Shown here: positions 3,487 to 22,992 of the stretch, one piece after another
Layout of the letters: each line of letters starts with the position of its first letter
Numbering within the stretch: position 1 is the stretch's first letter
Source: a virus
Length of the DNA stretch: 49,967 bases
IMG/VR virus record: IMGVR_UViG_3300047320_000137
Location: 1-49,967 of that record
Strand: one strand, 5' to 3'
Translations under genes and position numbers: made by a program
Notes under the pieces: model-generated
Seen by the model: the letters and a program-made list of their open reading frames with translations, nothing else
Told to the model about the DNA's origin: nothing
The model's database searches: none

Positions 3487-4089
3487 GTGAATCTAATTTC
3501 CAGAAGCGAAGCTAAGGCTCAGGGTTTGACGAGATATTTTACAAAAGAAGCTTGTAAGAACGGCCATATTTCAGAGCGTTTCGTAAACAACGGGTATTGT
3601 TGTATTTGTAAAAAAGAAACTAGACATAAACCTGAAGTAAGAGAAAAAGAACGTTTGCAATGTATAGAGTGGAAAAAGGGTAACGTTGAAAAAGTTAGTC
3701 AATACAATAAAGATTGGCTCACTATAAACGGGGATAAAAGACGAACTAAGCGTAGAATCATATATGCTTCTAATCCTGACTTTTTTAGATCTATTTCTAA
3801 AAATTGGTCAAAACAAAATCGAAGTAAAGTGTATCTAAGTAACGCTAGTAGACGGGCCACAAAACTTCGGGCTACCCCTACTTGGGTTGATTTAAAAGCA
3901 ATGGAAGCATTTTACGCAAAATCTGTAAAACTCTCTGAAGAAACAGGTATTACTCACCATGTAGATCATATAGTGCCTTTACAAAATGAAATAGTCTGCG
4001 GTTTACATAATCAATTCAATTTACAAGTATTAACAGCTACGGAAAATATTTCTAAAGGCAATAGATTTTGGCCAGATATGCCGAACTGA
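3487..4089 (+). CDS. HNH endonuclease
   Basis: A 200-residue HNH nuclease. The N-terminus (ISRSEAKAQGL, RYFTKEACKNGH) matches a common family of free-standing phage HNH enzymes. Cys23, Cys38, Cys39 and Cys41 could form a structural zinc site. The catalytic core is HHVDHIVPL (residues 157-165), followed by a conserved Asn/His region (GLHNQFNLQVL) and ENISKGNR. The start is GTG 3487, supported by the conserved N-terminus, with no good ribosome binding site. The gene looks more AT-rich than its neighbours, as expected of a mobile homing-type gene. It lies last in the first plus-strand block, just before a bidirectional terminator. Confidence 0.88.
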   Translation: MNLISRSEAKAQGLTRYFTKEACKNGHISERFVNNGYCCICKKETRHKPEVREKERLQCIEWKKGNVEKVSQYNKDWLTINGDKRRTKRRIIYASNPDFFRSISKNWSKQNRSKVYLSNASRRATKLRATPTWVDLKAMEAFYAKSVKLSEETGITHHVDHIVPLQNEIVCGLHNQFNLQVLTATENISKGNRFWPDMPN

Positions 4090-4222: not shown

Positions 4223-5461
4223 TTACAAAGAGCGAAACTCAGAATCTTGCACACCTACAGATTCAGGCAGAGCAAAGGTTTCATCCAATGCTGCTTCTTC
4301 CTCTTCTACAACAGGATTTACAGGCTCTACCTGTGCAGCCCATTGATTGAACCGACCCGTAGTAGTCGTAGGTTCAGGCTTTTTAGTACGAGCTTTTCTC
4401 TTCGGAGCTTCAACTACAACTTCAGGATTCACCGCCTGGTTAGCCGCAAGAGCTGCCTGGGCATCACGAAGCTGAATCATCTCGTTGTTACGAAGCAAGA
4501 ACGAGTCGAACAAATTCTCTGCGGAAACCATAGCGCAGCTTCCAACAAATCCCCGGTTCACCCCATTGCTGATCGAAGAGTGATACGAAGCCGACGGTTG
4601 AACAATCTTGTTGCGATAGTTCGTAATCGTGTTCTTCGTATACGTCGTCGAACCACTTCCGATGTCAATCGAAATCTCGTTGTAATCCACGATCTTGTTG
4701 TAGTAATAATTTTGCACAAACGACAGAATCAGCATAGCCATCAACGAATTGATTGCCAGAGTCTGATCCAGGTCAGCGCAACTACCAAGCCCGGGATTGT
4801 CCTGAAGGCTCTCATAGAACTCGTGGTCGTACGGCAAGTATTCGACCGGTTCCGGAAGGAATTCGATACGCTCAGGTACACGATACTTTGCACGAAGCTC
4901 GCCTTCTTGATACACCTTGTTGGAAATCAAGATGTGATTCGTAAACATCCGAACCTGACCAAATGCGTCTTCGTTCCCCGCATCAATGAACAACGTAGTC
5001 TTGTTGTAGTTAAGCGGAGCCAAGGCTTTGAGAACCGTGCGACGAGCCTCTGCGCTATCCACACACATGATAACCAGGTCGTTCGAAGTATTCTCGATCG
5101 TTATCCCAGCGGTGTTAACCAAGTCAGCACGGAACGTCGACGGTGTCATCGCCTTATCGATAAACTTCGGATAGGCCACGACATTCATGTCGTAAGCCTT
5201 GCCATATCGCATCGCAAGAACCGAGGCCTTGTTCTTGTTCACATCGTTTGCGATGAAGTTCTGACGAAGCAGATTCTTCTGTTCAACAATATCACCGTCA
5301 ATCAGAACGATGTTCGTCGAAGGCAACCATCCAGTCGGATTATGCTCTTTCGTGATCGAACGGATAAACTGAACGAGGGTCGGAATTAGGCGGGAACCGG
5401 TTCCTCCGCAACCTACGACGAAAATGTTGGTAGGAATAGTAGGCGGGCGAAATTTAAACAT
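4223..5461 (-). CDS. PRTRC-type ThiF/E1-like ubiquitin-activating enzyme
   Basis: A 412-residue protein of the ThiF/E1 superfamily. These enzymes use ATP to adenylate the C-terminal glycine of a ubiquitin-like protein and usually pass it to a cysteine. The Rossmann nucleotide loop GCGGTGS is at residues 17-23, the acidic pair in DGD at 55-57, and Arg66 and Lys78 follow at the usual spacing. CVDS is at 133-136, and Cys228 (GSCADLDQ) is the candidate catalytic cysteine before a helical AINSL segment, as in PRTRC ThiF proteins. Residues after about 330 are a low-complexity Glu/Pro/Lys tail not needed for the fold. A good ribosome site (CAGGAG) precedes ATG 5461, and the gene appears to have its own promoter. 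Confidence 0.88.
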   Translation of the reverse strand: MFKFRPPTIPTNIFVVGCGGTGSRLIPTLVQFIRSITKEHNPTGWLPSTNIVLIDGDIVEQKNLLRQNFIANDVNKNKASVLAMRYGKAYDMNVVAYPKFIDKAMTPSTFRADLVNTAGITIENTSNDLVIMCVDSAEARRTVLKALAPLNYNKTTLFIDAGNEDAFGQVRMFTNHILISNKVYQEGELRAKYRVPERIEFLPEPVEYLPYDHEFYESLQDNPGLGSCADLDQTLAINSLMAMLILSFVQNYYYNKIVDYNEISIDIGSGSTTYTKNTITNYRNKIVQPSASYHSSISNGVNRGFVGSCAMVSAENLFDSFLLRNNEMIQLRDAQAALAANQAVNPEVVVEAPKRKARTKKPEPTTTTGRFNQWAAQVEPVNPVVEEEEAALDETFALPESVGVQDSEFRSL

Positions 5462-5521
5462 GTTTACTCCTGGTTAAAAAGCTAGACGAATGGTCTTGTT
5501 TAAGGACGTGGTGGTCCGTTA

Positions 5522-5536
5522 CTATTCTTATACCAA
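5522..5536 (-). promoter_or_regulatory. Candidate extended -10 promoter for the E1-like gene
   Basis: On the minus strand this reads TTGGTATAAGAATAG, containing TGGTATAA, an extended -10-like element. It lies about 60 nt upstream of the E1-like ATG at 5461 and overlaps the stop codon of the 77-residue gene. The same core word occurs upstream of at least four other minus-strand transcription units here. Confidence 0.6.
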
Positions 5537-5761
5537 AGAATTCGAATTCAATGGCCGAGGCCCAGTAGGTTCACCGATTATAACAATGCCCTTACTCGCA
5601 GCTTCTGCAGCATCAAGTTGAGCAAGGAAATTGGCCTTAGCGACTTTTTCAAGTTCGGGACTTGACGTCATGCATTTAAAACAGATCAACGCCCCGTTAT
5701 GTCCATACGGACGGACGTCAAATTCTTCGTGCAAGTCTTTGCAGTAGTGACAGAGTTTCAT
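5528..5761 (-). CDS. Small putative zinc-ribbon protein
   Basis: A 77-residue protein. Two cysteine pairs, CHYC (residues 4-7) and CFKC (27-30), are spaced like a zinc ribbon or treble-clef knuckle, followed by a helix and a Pro-rich tail. Proteins of this size with two CxxC knuckles often bind nucleic acid or a protein partner; here the target is unknown. Its ATG overlaps the stop of the upstream 66-residue gene by one base (TAATG), so the two are coupled. It lies between the JAB and E1 genes of the conjugation module, so a link to that system is possible but not shown. Confidence 0.65.
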   Translation of the reverse strand: MKLCHYCKDLHEEFDVRPYGHNGALICFKCMTSSPELEKVAKANFLAQLDAAEAASKGIVIIGEPTGPRPLNSNSLV

Positions 5762-5961
5762 TAAAAATCCCTAGTAAGGTTTAAAACCTTATCTTTCAAG
5801 AGTTGCAAATCTCTTTCTGCATCAATCCGTTTTCTCTTTTCATGGATTGCTGCATCACTCCACGTGTCAAATCCGTCAGGGCCTTTGGCTTCGCTTCGAA
5901 GTTTCCAGATTTCTCCCCATAGACGGATTGGGTTGGATTCGTTAGGGTCTAGAGGTTCCAT
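5761..5961 (-). CDS. Small phage protein of unknown function
   Basis: A 66-residue hydrophilic, probably helical protein. The stretch EIWKLRSEAKGPDGFDTW followed by a charged (K/R)-rich helix resembles a class of short phage proteins often seen in accessory regions; no activity is known to me. The gene starts about 14 nt after the terminator that follows the JAB gene, and its stop overlaps the next ATG. It may therefore depend on read-through or on an unseen promoter. Confidence 0.65.
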   Translation of the reverse strand: MEPLDPNESNPIRLWGEIWKLRSEAKGPDGFDTWSDAAIHEKRKRIDAERDLQLLKDKVLNLTRDF

Positions 5962-5974
5962 AGTTTGTCTCTCT

Positions 5975-6002
5975 AAAAAAAGAAGCGCTCGGTTAAGAGC
6001 GC
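5975..6002 (-). terminator. Rho-independent terminator after the JAB gene
   Basis: On the minus strand the stem GCGCTC pairs with GAGCGC across a six-base loop and is followed by a run of T's (plus-strand A-run at 5975-5981). It lies 8 nt past the stop of the JAB gene and closes the Ubl-to-JAB transcription unit. Confidence 0.8.
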
Positions 6003-6010
6003 CTCTCGGG

Positions 6011-7390
6011 TTAGTGAATACCGTTCATCTGGATACGTTCTTGAACTTCATCAGGGAGTTCCTGATAGAGTCGTTTGAACAAGGTTTCCATAGCAGGACC
6101 ATCAGAAGCCATATGCAACATATCGGCCATAATGGTTTCTACCAACTCATCCTTACCACTGAGATTAGCCATGATGTCATCAATCAGACAGAATGCTTCT
6201 GCAGTGTCGTGACCATGTTGAGCATGGACTTCATCGTAACGATCATCGCCTGCATACATGCTCATGCCGGGACCATCTTGATAAGTCTGATTACGGATCT
6301 CTCCAGTAGCCTGATCGACGTCAGGATCGAACGCAGGATTATACCCAGCATTGCCCGTGTAAGCAGGGGGAAGATGCGACTCGTCATAGCTCGGATCTTC
6401 GAACGCACGAGCCAACGCACGCTCTGCATATGCAAGCCTTTCATCCTCGCCATTCGGAGTCAGATTCCAGGCATCGTCGGGATGACTCAGTGCGGGGTTT
6501 TGGGCCATCCCCCAGAAATCACCCTGCCAGTCGATATCACGCCCGTCCCAGGATTCGCCGGGAAGTAACCCCCGTTGGTTCTGGAGATGAGGACCAGCTC
6601 TATTGCCTTCCTTTTCTCCGCTTCCCGCGTCTCCCTTTTTGTATTGCCACGGCTTCAAGTGTTCCGCTTTTCCCTTTGTGCTGTTCCCTCCATACACAGT
6701 AACCGGAGGCGTATACGTATTGATTTTTGCAACCCAATCAGCAGGGACCGCTGCCTCAGGACGAGCCGGGAGTTCGAACACATCATCCAGTTCGCACTCG
6801 ATCTTCTTGTCACGATAGTTAAAGCGCCAAACCGTTTGCGGATTGGTACTCTTCAGATGTCCGACAACGCCTGAGAAACCGATGTTATTTTGATCATCAC
6901 GATTATCCGTGCCACTGAAGAACGCACCCATCGTATTGTGACTATGAATATCACAGACGATAGTCTTGCCCGTCGGAAGCGACGACCAGTCATACGAAGC
7001 CGAAGCTTTCGATACACGTTGATCCGGAACGATCAAGTGATAGCCACTTTCAGCGTCCCAACAAATCCAGATCATCGCCTCAACTTCAGACTTCTTGACT
7101 TCCATGACCTGTTTGAAGAATGCAACAACCTGGTCAAACAACTCAATGGGAATCTTGCCATCAGGCAGGAAGTTGATTTCCTGAGCAATGCGAGTCGTTT
7201 TATAGTTGTCCGGAAGCTTGTCAACTGCCAAACGAACGTAACGATTCTGACCACGAAGCTTATGATGCTTCAGAATCGGAGATTCCTTCGAACCGGTCAT
7301 AACATAGATTTCGTTATAGCCCGCTTCCATTGCAGCCGGAAGTTCGTTCGGTGTTACAACACAGCTGATGAATTGAGTAATGATGTCCAT
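6011..7390 (-). CDS. JAB/JAMM metalloprotease, PRTRC protein A-like (deconjugating or Ubl-processing)
   Basis: A 459-residue protein with a JAMM zinc-protease signature: His149-Ser-His151, then Ser159 and Asp162 (the H-x-H-x7-S-x2-D pattern), with Glu104 as the likely upstream catalytic glutamate. JAB-family enzymes cleave ubiquitin-type proteins from targets or trim their C-termini. The N-terminal 130 residues fit the PRTRC protein A arrangement. The C-terminal half (about 220-459) is an extra acidic, Gly/Pro-rich region ending in a helical segment, making it much longer than I would expect for PRTRC A. A strong ribosome site (AGGAGAG) precedes ATG 7390. It follows the E2-like gene by 26 bp. 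Confidence 0.85.
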   Translation of the reverse strand: MDIITQFISCVVTPNELPAAMEAGYNEIYVMTGSKESPILKHHKLRGQNRYVRLAVDKLPDNYKTTRIAQEINFLPDGKIPIELFDQVVAFFKQVMEVKKSEVEAMIWICWDAESGYHLIVPDQRVSKASASYDWSSLPTGKTIVCDIHSHNTMGAFFSGTDNRDDQNNIGFSGVVGHLKSTNPQTVWRFNYRDKKIECELDDVFELPARPEAAVPADWVAKINTYTPPVTVYGGNSTKGKAEHLKPWQYKKGDAGSGEKEGNRAGPHLQNQRGLLPGESWDGRDIDWQGDFWGMAQNPALSHPDDAWNLTPNGEDERLAYAERALARAFEDPSYDESHLPPAYTGNAGYNPAFDPDVDQATGEIRNQTYQDGPGMSMYAGDDRYDEVHAQHGHDTAEAFCLIDDIMANLSGKDELVETIMADMLHMASDGPAMETLFKRLYQELPDEVQERIQMNGIH

Positions 7391-7416
7391 CTAAAACTCT
7401 CCTGGAGTTGTTTTAC

Positions 7417-8181
7417 TTAAACGGCTTTGAAGCCACGAAGTGATTCGTAGGGGAAAGGCTTATTGTCTTTTGCTGCATCAGCGAGTTTCTTGAACCAGGC
7501 TTCAATAGAAGGCTCGCCAGAAACTGCACGAAGACCCAAGTCATTATTAAATGGGGATTCAAACAGGAACTGATAATACCAGTCCAGACCACGTAGGTTA
7601 TTTTCTGGAAACTGCGTAGGCATCGAATTACCACCATAGCACATATTGCCTTCCGAATAAGTATTCGGGAACGGAGACAGATAAATGTGCTTGTTACCGT
7701 CAACACCCCAAATGAAGTTCTTCGGCAAATTACCTACTTTTGCATTGGTCGCATAGTATCTCGACCCATTCGCTTTCCACGTTTTAGAGTTGTGGCGAGT
7801 CAACTGATGACTGATAATGAAGTTAGGCGCACGCACCGTGTACTTCTTGTTCATGTGACGCATTTCAGCCACACGCTCAGCATAATAACAACTCAGTTGA
7901 ATCGTGGTACTCGACTTTGCGAAATAAAAACAGTTCGACGGAAGTTGGAAACCTTCCATCTGTTCCTCATTTCGATGATTAACAACTGCACCGATAATCG
8001 CATTAAAGTCTTCGTACGAGACTCGCTTTTCGACTTGGCTCTTTTCATCGCCGACCATGAATGCTACGCAGTCTTCGAGAAGAATAACGTGATGGCCCAG
8101 CACATCCACAAGCCGCTCTTGAGGTTTCAAAATTTCTTTAGCGACGGGAGCTTCTACGGCTTCGATAACAATATCTGTCAT
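7417..8181 (-). CDS. PRTRC protein B-like, E2-like conjugating protein
   Basis: A 254-residue protein resembling PRTRC system protein B, a family proposed to have an E2 (ubiquitin-conjugating) fold. The diagnostic stretch is the C-terminal FPN...G.MCYGG segment (residues 171-184), where PN and a lone Cys181 lie as in E2-like active sites. It is preceded by IWGVDGNKHIYL, which matches the strand that leads into the site in PRTRC B. The first 100 residues form the family's N-terminal domain. Its ATG overlaps the stop of the 84-residue gene by the ATGA arrangement, with GAGGA as ribosome site. The expected role is to receive the activated Ubl from the E1-like protein. Confidence 0.8.
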   Translation of the reverse strand: MTDIVIEAVEAPVAKEILKPQERLVDVLGHHVILLEDCVAFMVGDEKSQVEKRVSYEDFNAIIGAVVNHRNEEQMEGFQLPSNCFYFAKSSTTIQLSCYYAERVAEMRHMNKKYTVRAPNFIISHQLTRHNSKTWKANGSRYYATNAKVGNLPKNFIWGVDGNKHIYLSPFPNTYSEGNMCYGGNSMPTQFPENNLRGLDWYYQFLFESPFNNDLGLRAVSGEPSIEAWFKKLADAAKDNKPFPYESLRGFKAV

Positions 8182-8432
8182 ACAAAATCCTCTTCAGTAT
8201 CTGTAACTGCGTGTTTGGCTTTAACTACCTGAACCTCAATATTTTTGAGATTCGCTTTGGTTCTGCGTACAGTTTCAACCTGGAACACCTGAACACAAGC
8301 CCTACTCAATAATTCGAGATCGGAATGAGTTTTAGGAATATCCACATCGTTGAATCTATTTACTGCTGCATAAACTTCAGAAGCCAAATCAGGTAGTTTC
8401 GACGCTTCCGACATTAAACGCTGAAGTATCAT
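8178..8432 (-). CDS. Unrecognised small helical protein in the Ubl operon
   Basis: An 84-residue mostly helical protein with no recognisable motif. Its start at 8432 overlaps the end of the 304-residue gene by 44 bp; a second Met codon at 8414 could be the true start, but neither has a strong ribosome site. Its end overlaps the E2-like gene by four bases (ATGA), so the two are likely coupled. I do not recognise it as one of the named PRTRC components. It may be a partner or adaptor of the conjugation proteins, by position only. Confidence 0.6.
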   Translation of the reverse strand: MILQRLMSEASKLPDLASEVYAAVNRFNDVDIPKTHSDLELLSRACVQVFQVETVRRTKANLKNIEVQVVKAKHAVTDTEEDFV

Positions 8433-9303
8433 ATTGTACCCGTCGTGTAAAAGTGGTAATCACCTTGATCATTTCGTCAAGGACTGTAAAGATCTTTTCA
8501 GGTGTGCTATATCGTTCAAGACCTGGATAATACTCAACTCTAGAACGACTGGTAAGGGGAGAAGCCGTCCACCTATTCGGATCTTTGAATCGTCTTATGG
8601 ATTCCCCATCCCCTTCTCTGATAATATACCTCTCATATTCTTCATACGAAGTAATACCTAATTCTGATTCGCCACTAACAATCACAGTATATGTAGAAAA
8701 TTGATAAATAACCAACTCTGCTTTAACTGTCGAAACTGCTTTTACTCTAACAGTAGTCTCACCGCTTCTTGTCTTCCACCAGGTTTCGTATGCCTCTTCA
8801 TCTTCCGGATGAATGGAAAACTCAAACCCAGGAGACAGACTTATAGGAATACCTTTCTTAATAGCCTTATAGCGCAAGAATCTACAATACCGCTCTATAC
8901 TTTTTTTCCATTTGAAAGTATCTGACGCAACGTCCGCAAAAGAAGGCTCAAGTCTACTAACAGTTACTAGGAAATACGGAGATTCTAGTTTGATACCTAT
9001 CCCGTTAGGTCTATTACTCAACGGGAACAGAAACTGTTCACCGCCACGAATATACTCAAGGTAAGGAATCTGTTTCTTAACATGCTTATAGAGAATCTCT
9101 TTAAGCTTCTGTACAGATTTACGTTGTGCTCCTGAACGACTACCACTAATATCGAATTCGTAATTAAACGTCTTCGTCGAGAGTCGTTTATCCAGGATCT
9201 GCTGCGTACAAAACTTTGAAAGCTTATTTCCCGCATCAACTCTCATCTTTATAATGAGCGATGACAGATCTGATACGTTTTGAGGTAATTTGAATTTTCG
9301 CAT
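8389..9303 (-). CDS. Unrecognised 304-residue protein in the Ubl operon
   Basis: I cannot assign this protein to a family. It is basic at the N-terminus and has mixed alpha/beta character, with aromatic-rich strands (ESPYFLVTVSRLEP, VYQ/YTVIVSGES) but no catalytic signature. It lies directly after the Ubl gene and before the E2-like gene, inside the same apparent transcription unit. Its ribosome site (AGGA 9 nt upstream of ATG 9303) follows a potential RNA pseudoknot that could gate its translation. Position makes it a candidate target, ligase-like or accessory factor of the module, with no sequence proof. Confidence 0.7.
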   Translation of the reverse strand: MRKFKLPQNVSDLSSLIIKMRVDAGNKLSKFCTQQILDKRLSTKTFNYEFDISGSRSGAQRKSVQKLKEILYKHVKKQIPYLEYIRGGEQFLFPLSNRPNGIGIKLESPYFLVTVSRLEPSFADVASDTFKWKKSIERYCRFLRYKAIKKGIPISLSPGFEFSIHPEDEEAYETWWKTRSGETTVRVKAVSTVKAELVIYQFSTYTVIVSGESELGITSYEEYERYIIREGDGESIRRFKDPNRWTASPLTSRSRVEYYPGLERYSTPEKIFTVLDEMIKVITTFTRRVQYDTSAFNVGSVETT

Positions 9304-9320
9304 TATCTATCCTGTTGTAT

Positions 9321-9386
9321 TCCTGTTTTTCTTAAGCTCCTAGCTTGACTAAAAAAAACAGGAAAAACGAACAGCAAAGCTAGGAG
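9321..9386 (-). promoter_or_regulatory. Potential RNA pseudoknot or switch in the leader of the 304-residue gene
   Basis: Read on the minus strand, CTCCTAGCTT (9386-9377) is exactly complementary to AAGCTAGGAG (9346-9337), and TCCTGTTTTT (9363-9354) to AAAAACAGGA (9330-9321). The arms interleave in the order 1-2-1'-2', the topology of an H-type pseudoknot, or of two competing hairpins. The 5' arm of stem 2 can also pair its TCCTGTT with AACAGGA at the ribosome site (9310-9316). This is likely a translational control element between the Ubl gene and the next gene. Confidence 0.6.
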
Positions 9387-9440
9387 GGAACCTTGCTATT
9401 CGTTCTGCTTACACAGACTAAAGAATTAGTCTATGCGTGC

Positions 9441-9650
9441 TTAGCCCTTCGTGCCGGTGCGCGGCTTGAAGGTGATTTCGCGGGCTTCGCCGCCATCGAT
9501 GCTGATAACACGTTCGTCAGCTTGCATGCTGCCGATACCCGAGATATCGCCTGCGTAGTTCGTACGAACGAAGTCAACGCTACGGTCACCCGGAATGGTG
9601 TATTCGGTATCGGTCGAAGCAACAACGATGATGGTCTTGATAACTGCCAT
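9441..9650 (-). CDS. PRTRC protein C-like ubiquitin-like protein (Ubl)
   Basis: A 69-residue protein that resembles PRTRC system protein C, a predicted ubiquitin-like beta-grasp modifier. It begins with a short beta hairpin (VIKTIIVV), has an amphipathic middle, and ends ITFKPRTGTKG. The GTKG terminus is the ending I associate with plasmid PRTRC C proteins, and the exposed final Gly is where an E1-type enzyme would adenylate. No residues follow the Gly, so no C-terminal trimming would be needed. AAGGA precedes ATG 9650 at good spacing. It is the first gene after two tandem promoter-like motifs and heads the module. Confidence 0.85.
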   Translation of the reverse strand: MAVIKTIIVVASTDTEYTIPGDRSVDFVRTNYAGDISGIGSMQADERVISIDGGEAREITFKPRTGTKG

Positions 9651-22060: not shown

Positions 22061-22276
22061 ATGACAACGACAAACACAGATGGATTCGCAGCCCTTGGAG
22101 AAACTAAGGGCGGTTTGCCAAGAAGCGTTAATATCCCTACGAACATCTCAAGTATGCTATCTGGGACCTCGTGGGCAGATGACTGTTTCGTTTATCAAAA
22201 ATTTGCTGAGAAGTTGCAGGCGTATCTTATCGGTTACGTTAATGCAATCTACTCGGATCATAACGTATATCTATAA
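22061..22276 (+). CDS. Small unrecognised protein before the sigma factor
   Basis: A 71-residue protein with no recognisable domain. Its N-terminus is disordered-looking (Thr/Asn/Gly), followed by a helix (FAEKLQAYLIGYVNAIY). Its stop overlaps the ATG of the sigma-type gene by one base, so their expression is probably linked. It could be a small virion protein or an accessory to the sigma factor; nothing distinguishes these. Confidence 0.65.
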   Translation: MTTTNTDGFAALGETKGGLPRSVNIPTNISSMLSGTSWADDCFVYQKFAEKLQAYLIGYVNAIYSDHNVYL

Positions 22277-22992
22277 TGGCTGAAGAAACTACAAAACCAG
22301 AATTTATCGACTACCGGTCAAAAGACCGGGAGTTGTTTGACAAATGGAAAGAGACTGGCAGTAAGCGGGATCTTGGTAATTTGATGCATCAACTCTCAGG
22401 GGTTATCTACCAGGAAGTCAATAGACAGTCTGGAAGTCTACCTAATGCTGCGCTTAGTGCAGAGGCTAAAACTTGGGCTATCAAAGCCATCAATACGTAC
22501 GATCCCAGTAAGGGGACTCAGCTATCTACGCACGTAACTAATTATCTCCAACGTGTACGTCGCCTAAATTATAAGTATCAGAACGCAGTCAGACTTCCTG
22601 AAAATATGCAGCTTATGTATAGAGATTGGAATTCGGCTAATCAGGAACTATCCGATCAGCTTAACCGTGATCCTACCGAAGAAGAACTCGCTAAGCACTT
22701 GGGGTGGACAAAGCCTCAAGTTATTAAATACAGAAACTCTCTGTACTCAGATCTCGTTGAATCAGCTTCGGATAAACCAGCTGAATTCACTCAGTACAAT
22801 GAAAGTGCAGAACTTATGGCCTATCTCATGAGTCAACTGACGTCTGATGAAAAATTTATTCTTGACAACGTTAAACTGATGCCTGCCCCGCAAATCGCTG
22901 CAAAGCTTGGTGTTAACATCAATCGATACAACTATATCAAGACGCAACTTAAGAACAAAATCGAAAAAATTAAGCAGGATATTGGACTCTAA
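22276..22992 (+). CDS. Sigma-70 family RNA polymerase sigma factor
   Basis: A 238-residue protein with the order of sigma regions. Region 2 is at about 35-111: AINTYDPSKGTQLSTHVTNY, then LQRVRRLNYKYQNAVRLPENM, matching the core-binding and -10-reading helices. Region 3 is at about 118-155 (DQLNRDPTEEELAKHLGW). Region 4 is at about 185-234, a helix-turn-helix with APQIAAKLGVNINRYNYIK. There is no region 1. Such a factor would direct host RNA polymerase core to phage promoters, probably late ones. It is unusually embedded among baseplate genes with one-base overlaps on both sides. If it is made late, it would amplify structural gene expression. Confidence 0.88.
   Translation: MAEETTKPEFIDYRSKDRELFDKWKETGSKRDLGNLMHQLSGVIYQEVNRQSGSLPNAALSAEAKTWAIKAINTYDPSKGTQLSTHVTNYLQRVRRLNYKYQNAVRLPENMQLMYRDWNSANQELSDQLNRDPTEEELAKHLGWTKPQVIKYRNSLYSDLVESASDKPAEFTQYNESAELMAYLMSQLTSDEKFILDNVKLMPAPQIAAKLGVNINRYNYIKTQLKNKIEKIKQDIGL

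Follow-up and report, generated by a model that had tools for sequence, protein, structure and literature searches.

Does a phage carry its own pathway for attaching a small protein to other proteins and removing it again, and if so, which proteins would it act on? The question is raised by IMG/VR virus record IMGVR_UViG_3300047320_000137, a 49,967-base stretch of DNA that we refer to throughout as the window. An operon on its minus strand (9650-4223) encodes, in order of transcription, a 69-residue ubiquitin-like protein (Ubl), the open reading frames (ORFs) ORF304 and ORF84, an E2-like protein, a JAB peptidase, two small ORFs and an E1. In the families concerned, E1 adenylates the Ubl and holds it as a thioester, E2 transfers it, and JAB proteases cleave it. 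Bacterial Ubl conjugation is known chiefly as an anti-phage defence; in the present case phages themselves possess the complete pathway, as a core trait. We conclude that the operon probably encodes a phage Ubl conjugation and deconjugation pathway, core to a lineage of myoviruses, with abundant late phage proteins as the likeliest class of targets.

The three enzymes and their active sites

An initial annotation, made from the letters of the sequence, had described these genes as a complete PRTRC-like module of Ubl, E2-like, JAB and E1. The four ORFs it named on the minus strand are borne out by the ORF calls, and E1, JAB and the E2-like protein also by Pfam and NCBIfam matches, while its gene list missed ORF304, ORF84 and the two small ORFs between JAB and E1. 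Pfam matches over the cut-offs were found to ThiF (1.8e-14), Prok-JAB (8.2e-9) and Prok-E2_D (5.1e-9; 36.5 bits against a cut-off of 25, over residues 163-249 of the E2-like protein). The best NCBIfam names were PRTRC_ThiF (1.1e-24), PRTRC_A (1e-20) and PRTRC_B (1.5e-5), all under their cut-offs: E1 scores 87.1 bits with TIGR03736 (cut-off 144.75), JAB 74.2 bits with TIGR03735 (cut-off 101.8) and E2 24.4 bits with TIGR03737 (cut-off 131.45). For the proposed membership of the E2-like protein in PRTRC B, the match to Prok-E2_D is over its cut-off and that to PRTRC_B under its own. The AlphaFold2 model of this protein has a predicted local distance difference test score (pLDDT) of 90.8, and in a structural comparison it aligns over residues 76-245 with E2 enzymes, which, alone or in complexes, make up 48 of the 50 listed entries judging by their titles, at Z up to 5.2; one further listed entry, FTS, is an E2 variant.

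Judged by sequence conservation, the active sites of all three enzymes are intact. The E1 loop reads GCGGTGS, and Cys228 is identical in 33/33 lineage sequences. Cys181 of the E2-like protein lies within FPNTYSEGNMCYGG, and Asn173, Cys181 and Gly183 are identical in all 34 distinct lineage sequences. From Asn to Cys the spacing is eight, that of HPN...C in classical E2s, in every motif variant except one, and the HPN His is replaced by Phe or Met. The metal-site motif of the JAB is HSHNTMGAFFSGTD; Ser159 and Asp162 are kept in 33/33 ORFs and Glu104 and His149 in 30/33, the three ORFs without them being the 3' halves of intron-split genes. For these counts, ORFs shorter than 180, 250 and 240 residues and identical sequences were dropped, the lineage list includes contigs added by hand where the terminase lay beyond the flank, and one E1 ORF (Vibrio phage D69, annotated short) lacks the N-terminal alignment columns.

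The enzyme genes also show some unusual architectures. In three loci a group I intron interrupts the JAB gene within its HSH active-site motif, at one or other of two points (L004 9144-9492; L100 and L104 about 5963-7110). The Rfam group I intron matches have E-values of 1.3e-5 (L004) and 2.5e-6 (L100), both under the gathering score, and at the gathering threshold Rfam returned nothing on L004. The longer intron holds, on the opposite strand, an open frame of 293 residues that, by its motif, resembles a LAGLIDADG endonuclease. The short annotated E1 of D69 (L006 11950-12945) has an open frame that runs upstream through the GxGGTG loop; this extension has no ATG, GTG or TTG, and translation may begin at a rare start codon, for instance ATT after AGGAG. 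Long versions of E1 (1046 residues, L036 8162-11302) and JAB (859 residues, L034 7992-10571) also occur, with extra parts that match no Pfam family at 0.01.

A predicted beta-grasp protein with a profile match to PRTRC C

The Ubl ends in ITFKPRTGTKG. On its own it gave no match at E <= 1 in Pfam or NCBIfam and two matches in PHROGs, both of unknown function (E 0.04 and 0.23); the five-unit Ubl array of locus L044 scored 24.5 bits with Pfam Prok_Ub, the cut-off being 25. A tblastn search of the phage collection with the Ubl gave no match, and relatives were found instead via the tail motif and a hidden Markov model; in Vibrio phages D148 and D181 the Ubl was not read. The alignment of the 28 phage units closes with G, a variable position (T, N or A), K and G.

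On the strength of its predicted structure, the Ubl is a beta-grasp protein of the ubiquitin-like fold, as first suggested. The AlphaFold2 model from the 28 units has a pLDDT of 93.1 and the order strand-strand-helix-strand-strand. In a second structural look at the PDB, the 50 rows listed were protein G and L domains and their fusions, ubiquitin (Z 4.8), the TINCR Ubl and MoaD (Z 4.7), with chains identified by title or from general knowledge of the chain; we take protein G, protein L, ubiquitin and MoaD to be beta-grasp folds. When the profile of the 28 phage units was compared with that of seven PRTRC C sequences from plasmids, the probability was 96.8 (E 3.1e-10). This fell to 94.6 when three intermediate units were removed and to 83.8 when the last six columns (the tail) of the remaining 25 units were removed as well; the reversed control gave 0.2, and 20 column shuffles of the 25-unit version at most 1.7.

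A MoaD-like beta-grasp with a C-terminal Gly, next to a ThiF-type E1, could also be a sulfur carrier of the ThiS/MoaD kind, for which E1 would make a thiocarboxylate for cofactor, nucleotide or tRNA modification, with the E2-like protein and JAB as accessories. This explanation is improbable: an E2-like protein with conserved Cys and Asn has, from what is known of these families, no place in sulfur carriage, no cofactor enzyme was recognised among the operon genes with Pfam, NCBIfam or PHROGs, and the Ubl arrays and probable excess expression described below suit a consumed tag better.

Conservation across a phage lineage

Within this lineage of large tailed phages (myoviruses), the operon counts as a core trait. 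A search with the terminase, which fetched loci regardless of the module, gave 43 loci. In 28 of the 30 with at least 6.5 kb upstream, Ubl, E2, JAB and E1 lie there, divergent from the terminase, and in the other two (L198 and L214) the module is elsewhere on the same contig (L034/L108 and L044/L118, respectively). The remaining 13 loci have shorter flanks: part of the module is visible in six, and the other seven offer fewer than 900 bases. As the terminase query was built from module-bearing phages, the fetch is blind locus by locus, not in the choice of lineage; it catches only relatives that match one of two peptides exactly, and the locus counts include near-copies of one virus from several metagenomes.

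Cultured phages show the same association. Terminase matches at 1e-20 were found in 36 records. Four of these reach 41% identity or more, namely Salmonella phage Arash and Vibrio phages D69, D148 and D181; the E2 matches fall in these same four records and in none of the other 32, at about 25% identity or less. In an unrooted E1 tree of 118 rows, all 32 lineage rows share one side of a branch (support 99/96) with L022, which was labelled 'other' but, as a near-copy of L021, is a lineage member too; the three plasmid rows, the only plasmid rows included, lie elsewhere. Protein distances track those of the terminase (Mantel r 0.52 for E2, 0.70 for JAB and 0.73 for E1, with 0/2000 permutations in each case), in a test on 26 distinct terminases of 55 loci that used one fragment per split JAB gene. 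In bacterial genomes, 49 stretches matched the terminase pattern and 0 were confirmed as relatives.

Partial sets were observed in two further large phages. Bacillus phage KLEB27-3 (L013) has E2, JAB and E1, and none of the ORFs in the 8.5 kb examined ends in a G.KG-type motif; Acinetobacter phage ME3 (L012) has E1 and two JAB ORFs, one of them already annotated as PRTRC A, with no Ubl recognised in the stretch examined.

The operon sits between tail genes and the terminase, the neighbourhood that had been described for it at the outset. Such a place would also suit a Ubl that is itself a virion or assembly component and that the enzymes only process, as proposed for the lambda-type pairing of tail assembly protein I (TAPI) with a JAB partner, for which the relevant portion of PMC1779556 provides the lambdoid TAPI/TAPK precedent. 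An assembly aid of this non-conjugating sort has little likelihood, however, since the precedent consists of Ubl and JAB only, whereas here E1 and E2 are present with invariant active sites.

Ubl arrays and dosage

In some relatives the Ubl is encoded as a tandem array, with two units in L015-L019, L024/L025, L040, L043 and L121, three in D69 and five in L044. Past the last GTKG there are either no residues or A (L044), ND (L121) or INYSK (D69), and the single Ubl of L042 ends in GTKGC. The two units of L015 and of L017 are identical over 62 residues despite 28 differing codons, all of them synonymous, and those of L024 and L043 differ at one residue versus 21 synonymous codons. Arrays of this kind require cleavage after GTKG by a protease, for which JAB is the candidate within the operon. 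As JAB is kept intact where the Ubl already ends in GTKG, trimming is not its sole task, which argues for deconjugation as well.

A terminator-like hairpin with a T-run is found within 150 bases past the Ubl stop in 23/27 lineage loci, against 0.8 expected from mononucleotide shuffles; the 27 contigs, which contribute one locus each, include close relatives. In Arash, the codon adaptation of the Ubl ranks second of 43 genes in a 50-kb stretch, behind the major capsid protein, which belongs to the reference set, and its value is reached by 42 of 1071 length-matched windows of 39 other Arash genes. The 43 genes are the Ubl and 42 of the 46 annotated features of the stretch, with gp206 (cut), gp212, gp215 and gp225 excluded. 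Together, the terminator and the codon adaptation suggest many Ubl molecules per enzyme, so that the Ubl is probably made in excess.

Salmonella phage Arash

The rank of the Arash Ubl depends on its reading frame. Gene gp251c (OQ632216.1, L005 102-320) is annotated from position 102 in a frame that comes last of the 43 in codon adaptation. An ORF in another frame (L005 107-307) encodes 66 residues and ends in GTKG, and its start at 107 lies six bases past an AAGGA that ends at 100, the annotated start lying one base past it. The Arash Ubl appears to be this 66-residue ORF, and we take the annotated frame to be wrong. After trypsin, a GTKG tail would leave only a single Gly on lysine, with the same mass as carbamidomethylation. 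Because of this coincidence of masses and the apparently wrong frame, Ubl conjugates could have been missed.

The particle proteome of Arash, in the portion of the publication available to us, comprises 116 proteins, including primase, DNA ligase, RNA polymerase subunits and a sigma factor (PMC10585845). Protein numbers above 239 in its table appear to be one higher than in GenBank: the coverages 80.50, 77.17, 61.41 and 76.25% correspond to whole residue counts of gp243, gp246c (E1), gp247c (JAB) and gp250c (320 residues), the same-numbered genes do not give whole counts, and 236-238 fit unshifted. Read with this shift, the available part of the table places E1, JAB, E2 (Gp249, at a non-discriminating 100%) and the 320-residue neighbour in the particle proteome. 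The GenBank label 'structural protein' on gp246c and gp248c agrees with the shift, and 'hypothetical' on gp247c and gp250c disagrees. On this reading, the enzymes appear to be in Arash particle preparations. With a cultured isolation host and a published particle proteome, Arash makes the function of this class of systems directly testable.

Proposed pathway and its targets

We propose the following pathway. The Ubl would be made in excess, in keeping with its own terminator, its high codon adaptation in Arash and the 2 to 5 tandem copies that some relatives encode. JAB would trim arrays and C-terminal extensions to expose ...GTKG, after which E1 would adenylate the last Gly and carry the Ubl on Cys228. 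The E2-like protein would accept it on Cys181 and, with the conserved Asn, pass it to amino groups of the target, from which JAB would also remove it. It is likely that the E1-E2-JAB chemistry works as in known cascades, and we lean towards JAB being both processor and isopeptidase.

Abundant late phage proteins, of the virion or of its assembly, are put forward more tentatively as the target, because of the core conservation of the operon, its site near tail and packaging genes, the probable excess of Ubl and the apparent association of the enzymes with particles. The main rival explanation is that the same chemistry is instead aimed at host proteins, for takeover or counter-defence, by enzymes that are delivered with the virion or made early. 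The apparent presence of the enzymes in Arash preparations, alongside RNA polymerase subunits and a sigma factor in the available part of the table, would fit delivery, and bacterial Ubl-like conjugation, in a CBASS study, reportedly acts against phages, so that a phage counter-system is conceivable. Nevertheless, we consider host targets less likely, as a core function accounts better than patchy arms-race cargo for the conservation throughout the sampled lineage, for distances that track the terminase and for the position close to tail genes and the terminase.

Several observations weigh against the pathway proposed here or against phage proteins as its target. This analysis identified no E3 and no target. 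High Ubl expression would fit host targets equally, and a general terminator scan of the window region found 7 sites, including the one after the Ubl, against 5.3 expected, which is not above shuffles. Not all arrays are homogeneous: counted without gaps, the units of L040, L121, L044 and D69 differ at between 4 and 53 of some 62 positions. The HPN His is lacking in the E2-like protein, with Phe or Met there, and no invariant His after Cys181 was found in 6 or in 41 aligned sequences. Foldseek against the PDB found nothing significant for the E2 model or for the Ubl model, for which protein L came top and the first 50 rows were mostly low-probability small GTPases; the structural Z scores, about 5 for the Ubl and up to 5.2 for E2, are middling. 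The PRTRC_C model (TIGR03738) is silent in the window and six phage records and finds its protein in three plasmids, so that the link of the Ubl to PRTRC rests on the profile comparison, and the expected placement of the 69-residue protein in PRTRC C is supported by the latter and not by the former. As for the particles, the authors of the Arash proteome allow, in the portion available, that enzymes in the preparation may be carry-over (PMC10585845), and their table, as far as available, has odd figures, such as 2 unique peptides with 76% coverage. Support for virion association is weak because the preparation holds 116 proteins and some of the peptide figures are odd.

The boldest version of our proposal, that the phage lineage depends on its own Ubl system for modifying virion or assembly proteins in bulk and that plasmid PRTRC systems are its relatives, is more speculative still than the choice of target. 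If true, it would add to particle assembly a core viral step of protein modification by E1, E2 and a deubiquitinase.

Layout of the locus and neighbouring genes

Table 1. Positions of the operon genes and associated features in the window.
Feature	Position	Strand	Basis
Ubl, 69 residues, beta-grasp, C-terminus GTKG	9441..9650	-	ORF, AlphaFold2 model, PRTRC C profile match, family alignment
Intrinsic-terminator-like hairpin after the Ubl gene, ahead of the enzyme genes	9364..9406	-	Terminator scan
ORF304, in the place of plasmid PRTRC F, no homology to F	8389..9303	-	ORF, profile comparison, PRTRC F model
ORF84, small ORF kept in nearer relatives	8178..8432	-	ORF, locus comparison
E2-like protein (Prok-E2_D / PRTRC B relative), Asn173 and Cys181 invariant	7417..8181	-	Pfam, NCBIfam, AlphaFold2, alignment
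JAB/JAMM peptidase (Prok-JAB / PRTRC A relative), Glu104, His149, His151, Ser159, Asp162	6011..7390	-	Pfam, NCBIfam, alignment
ORF66, weak phrog_17468 match (1.7e-4)	5761..5961	-	ORF, PHROGs
ORF77, phrog_18256 (2.2e-16), four Cys in two pairs, between JAB and E1	5528..5761	-	ORF, PHROGs
E1/ThiF (PRTRC ThiF relative), GxGGTG loop, Cys228 invariant	4223..5461	-	Pfam, NCBIfam, alignment
Large terminase subunit, divergent neighbour marking the phage lineage	10520..12133	+	PHROG terminase, 1.4e-50

ORF304 was considered as a PRTRC F protein and rejected: its family, compared with 7 plasmid sequences annotated as F or found at its place, gave a profile probability of 0.04. An endonuclease VII-like gene (phrog_1035, 3487-4089) adjoins the end of the operon, and L003 and L004 have what look like similar genes close to their operons. 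A sigma-factor-like protein (22276-22992) is encoded downstream of the terminase amid large plus-strand genes, and the window also encodes a phage lysozyme.

Comparison with known systems

Among the matches listed in a literature search, which did not extend to preprints or to most subscription journals, no paper dealt with a Ubl conjugation pathway encoded by phages. Term searches of the available main text of a jumbo-phage overview (PMC7824862) and of a review (PMC13282480) gave no passage on phage Ubl conjugation, and 'phage' does not occur in the main text of PMC1949818 as available. None of the PRTRC papers listed by the search is, by title, a functional study of the conjugation genes.

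The closest counterparts are the PRTRC systems of plasmids (NCBIfam TIGR03734-03738, 03741, 03742), which share relatives of A (JAB), B (E2-like), C (Ubl) and ThiF. The same gene order is thus found elsewhere, as had been anticipated: the phage order Ubl, large ORF, E2, JAB, E1 corresponds to plasmid C, F or an unnamed ORF, B, A and ThiF. The plasmid Ubl usually ends in G[TA]KG, in some cases with residues after it. The phage systems differ in their scores under the NCBIfam cut-offs, the poly-Ubl arrays, the terminator after the Ubl and the core site near the terminase. ParB, which the initial annotation had not seen either, was absent by its model (TIGR03734) from the window and from 14 phage records (two whole named records and twelve virus records that are possibly fragments), and PRTRC E (TIGR03741) from the window and the same number of records, most of them possibly fragments; both models found their proteins in 3/3 plasmids. 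The PRTRC F model (TIGR03742) gave nothing in the window and six phage records and found its protein in three plasmids. Because these models found nothing in the phage records searched, we regard the operon as a phage variant of the PRTRC type, or of the operon type 6d described below, rather than as a PRTRC system. Of the 'complete PRTRC-like' module first proposed, the relationships to ThiF, B, A and C stand, and completeness does not, as ParB, E and F were not found.

A plasmid operon of Cupriavidus metallidurans, which we take to be the species abbreviated 'Rmet', is annotated as PRTRC, and 'Rmet' is on the list given for operon type 6d in the portion of Iyer et al. 2006 available to us (PMC1779556). 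According to that portion, type 6d comprises a Ubl, a JAB, an E1-like, an E2-like and an alpha-helical protein, and its JAB has an N-terminal domain with strictly conserved Arg and Trp (PMC1779556). A Ubl with a conserved C-terminal Gly, a JAB, an E1 and an E2-like protein with a conserved Cys in one operon are shared with the phages, whereas the absolutely conserved His after the E2 Cys of type 6d is not seen in the phage E2, and the passage on type 6d names bacteria and no phages (PMC1779556). The lambda/T1-type TAPI and TAPK share a phage-encoded Ubl with a C-terminal Gly and a JAB partner, but no E1 or E2 is described with them in the same portion (PMC1779556).

Viewed as a whole, the parts of the phage pathway belong to a described type, that of operon 6d and plasmid PRTRC. 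The CBASS Cap2/Cap3 and Bil systems follow the same bacterial E1/E2/JAB logic, a likeness of description and not of sequence; they defend bacteria against phages, whereas the present system is carried by phages with their own Ubl. Eukaryotic polyubiquitin genes consist of head-to-tail repeats with residues after the last repeat, as do the phage arrays, which differ in that their tail is GTKG instead of GG and that some members have longer spacers.

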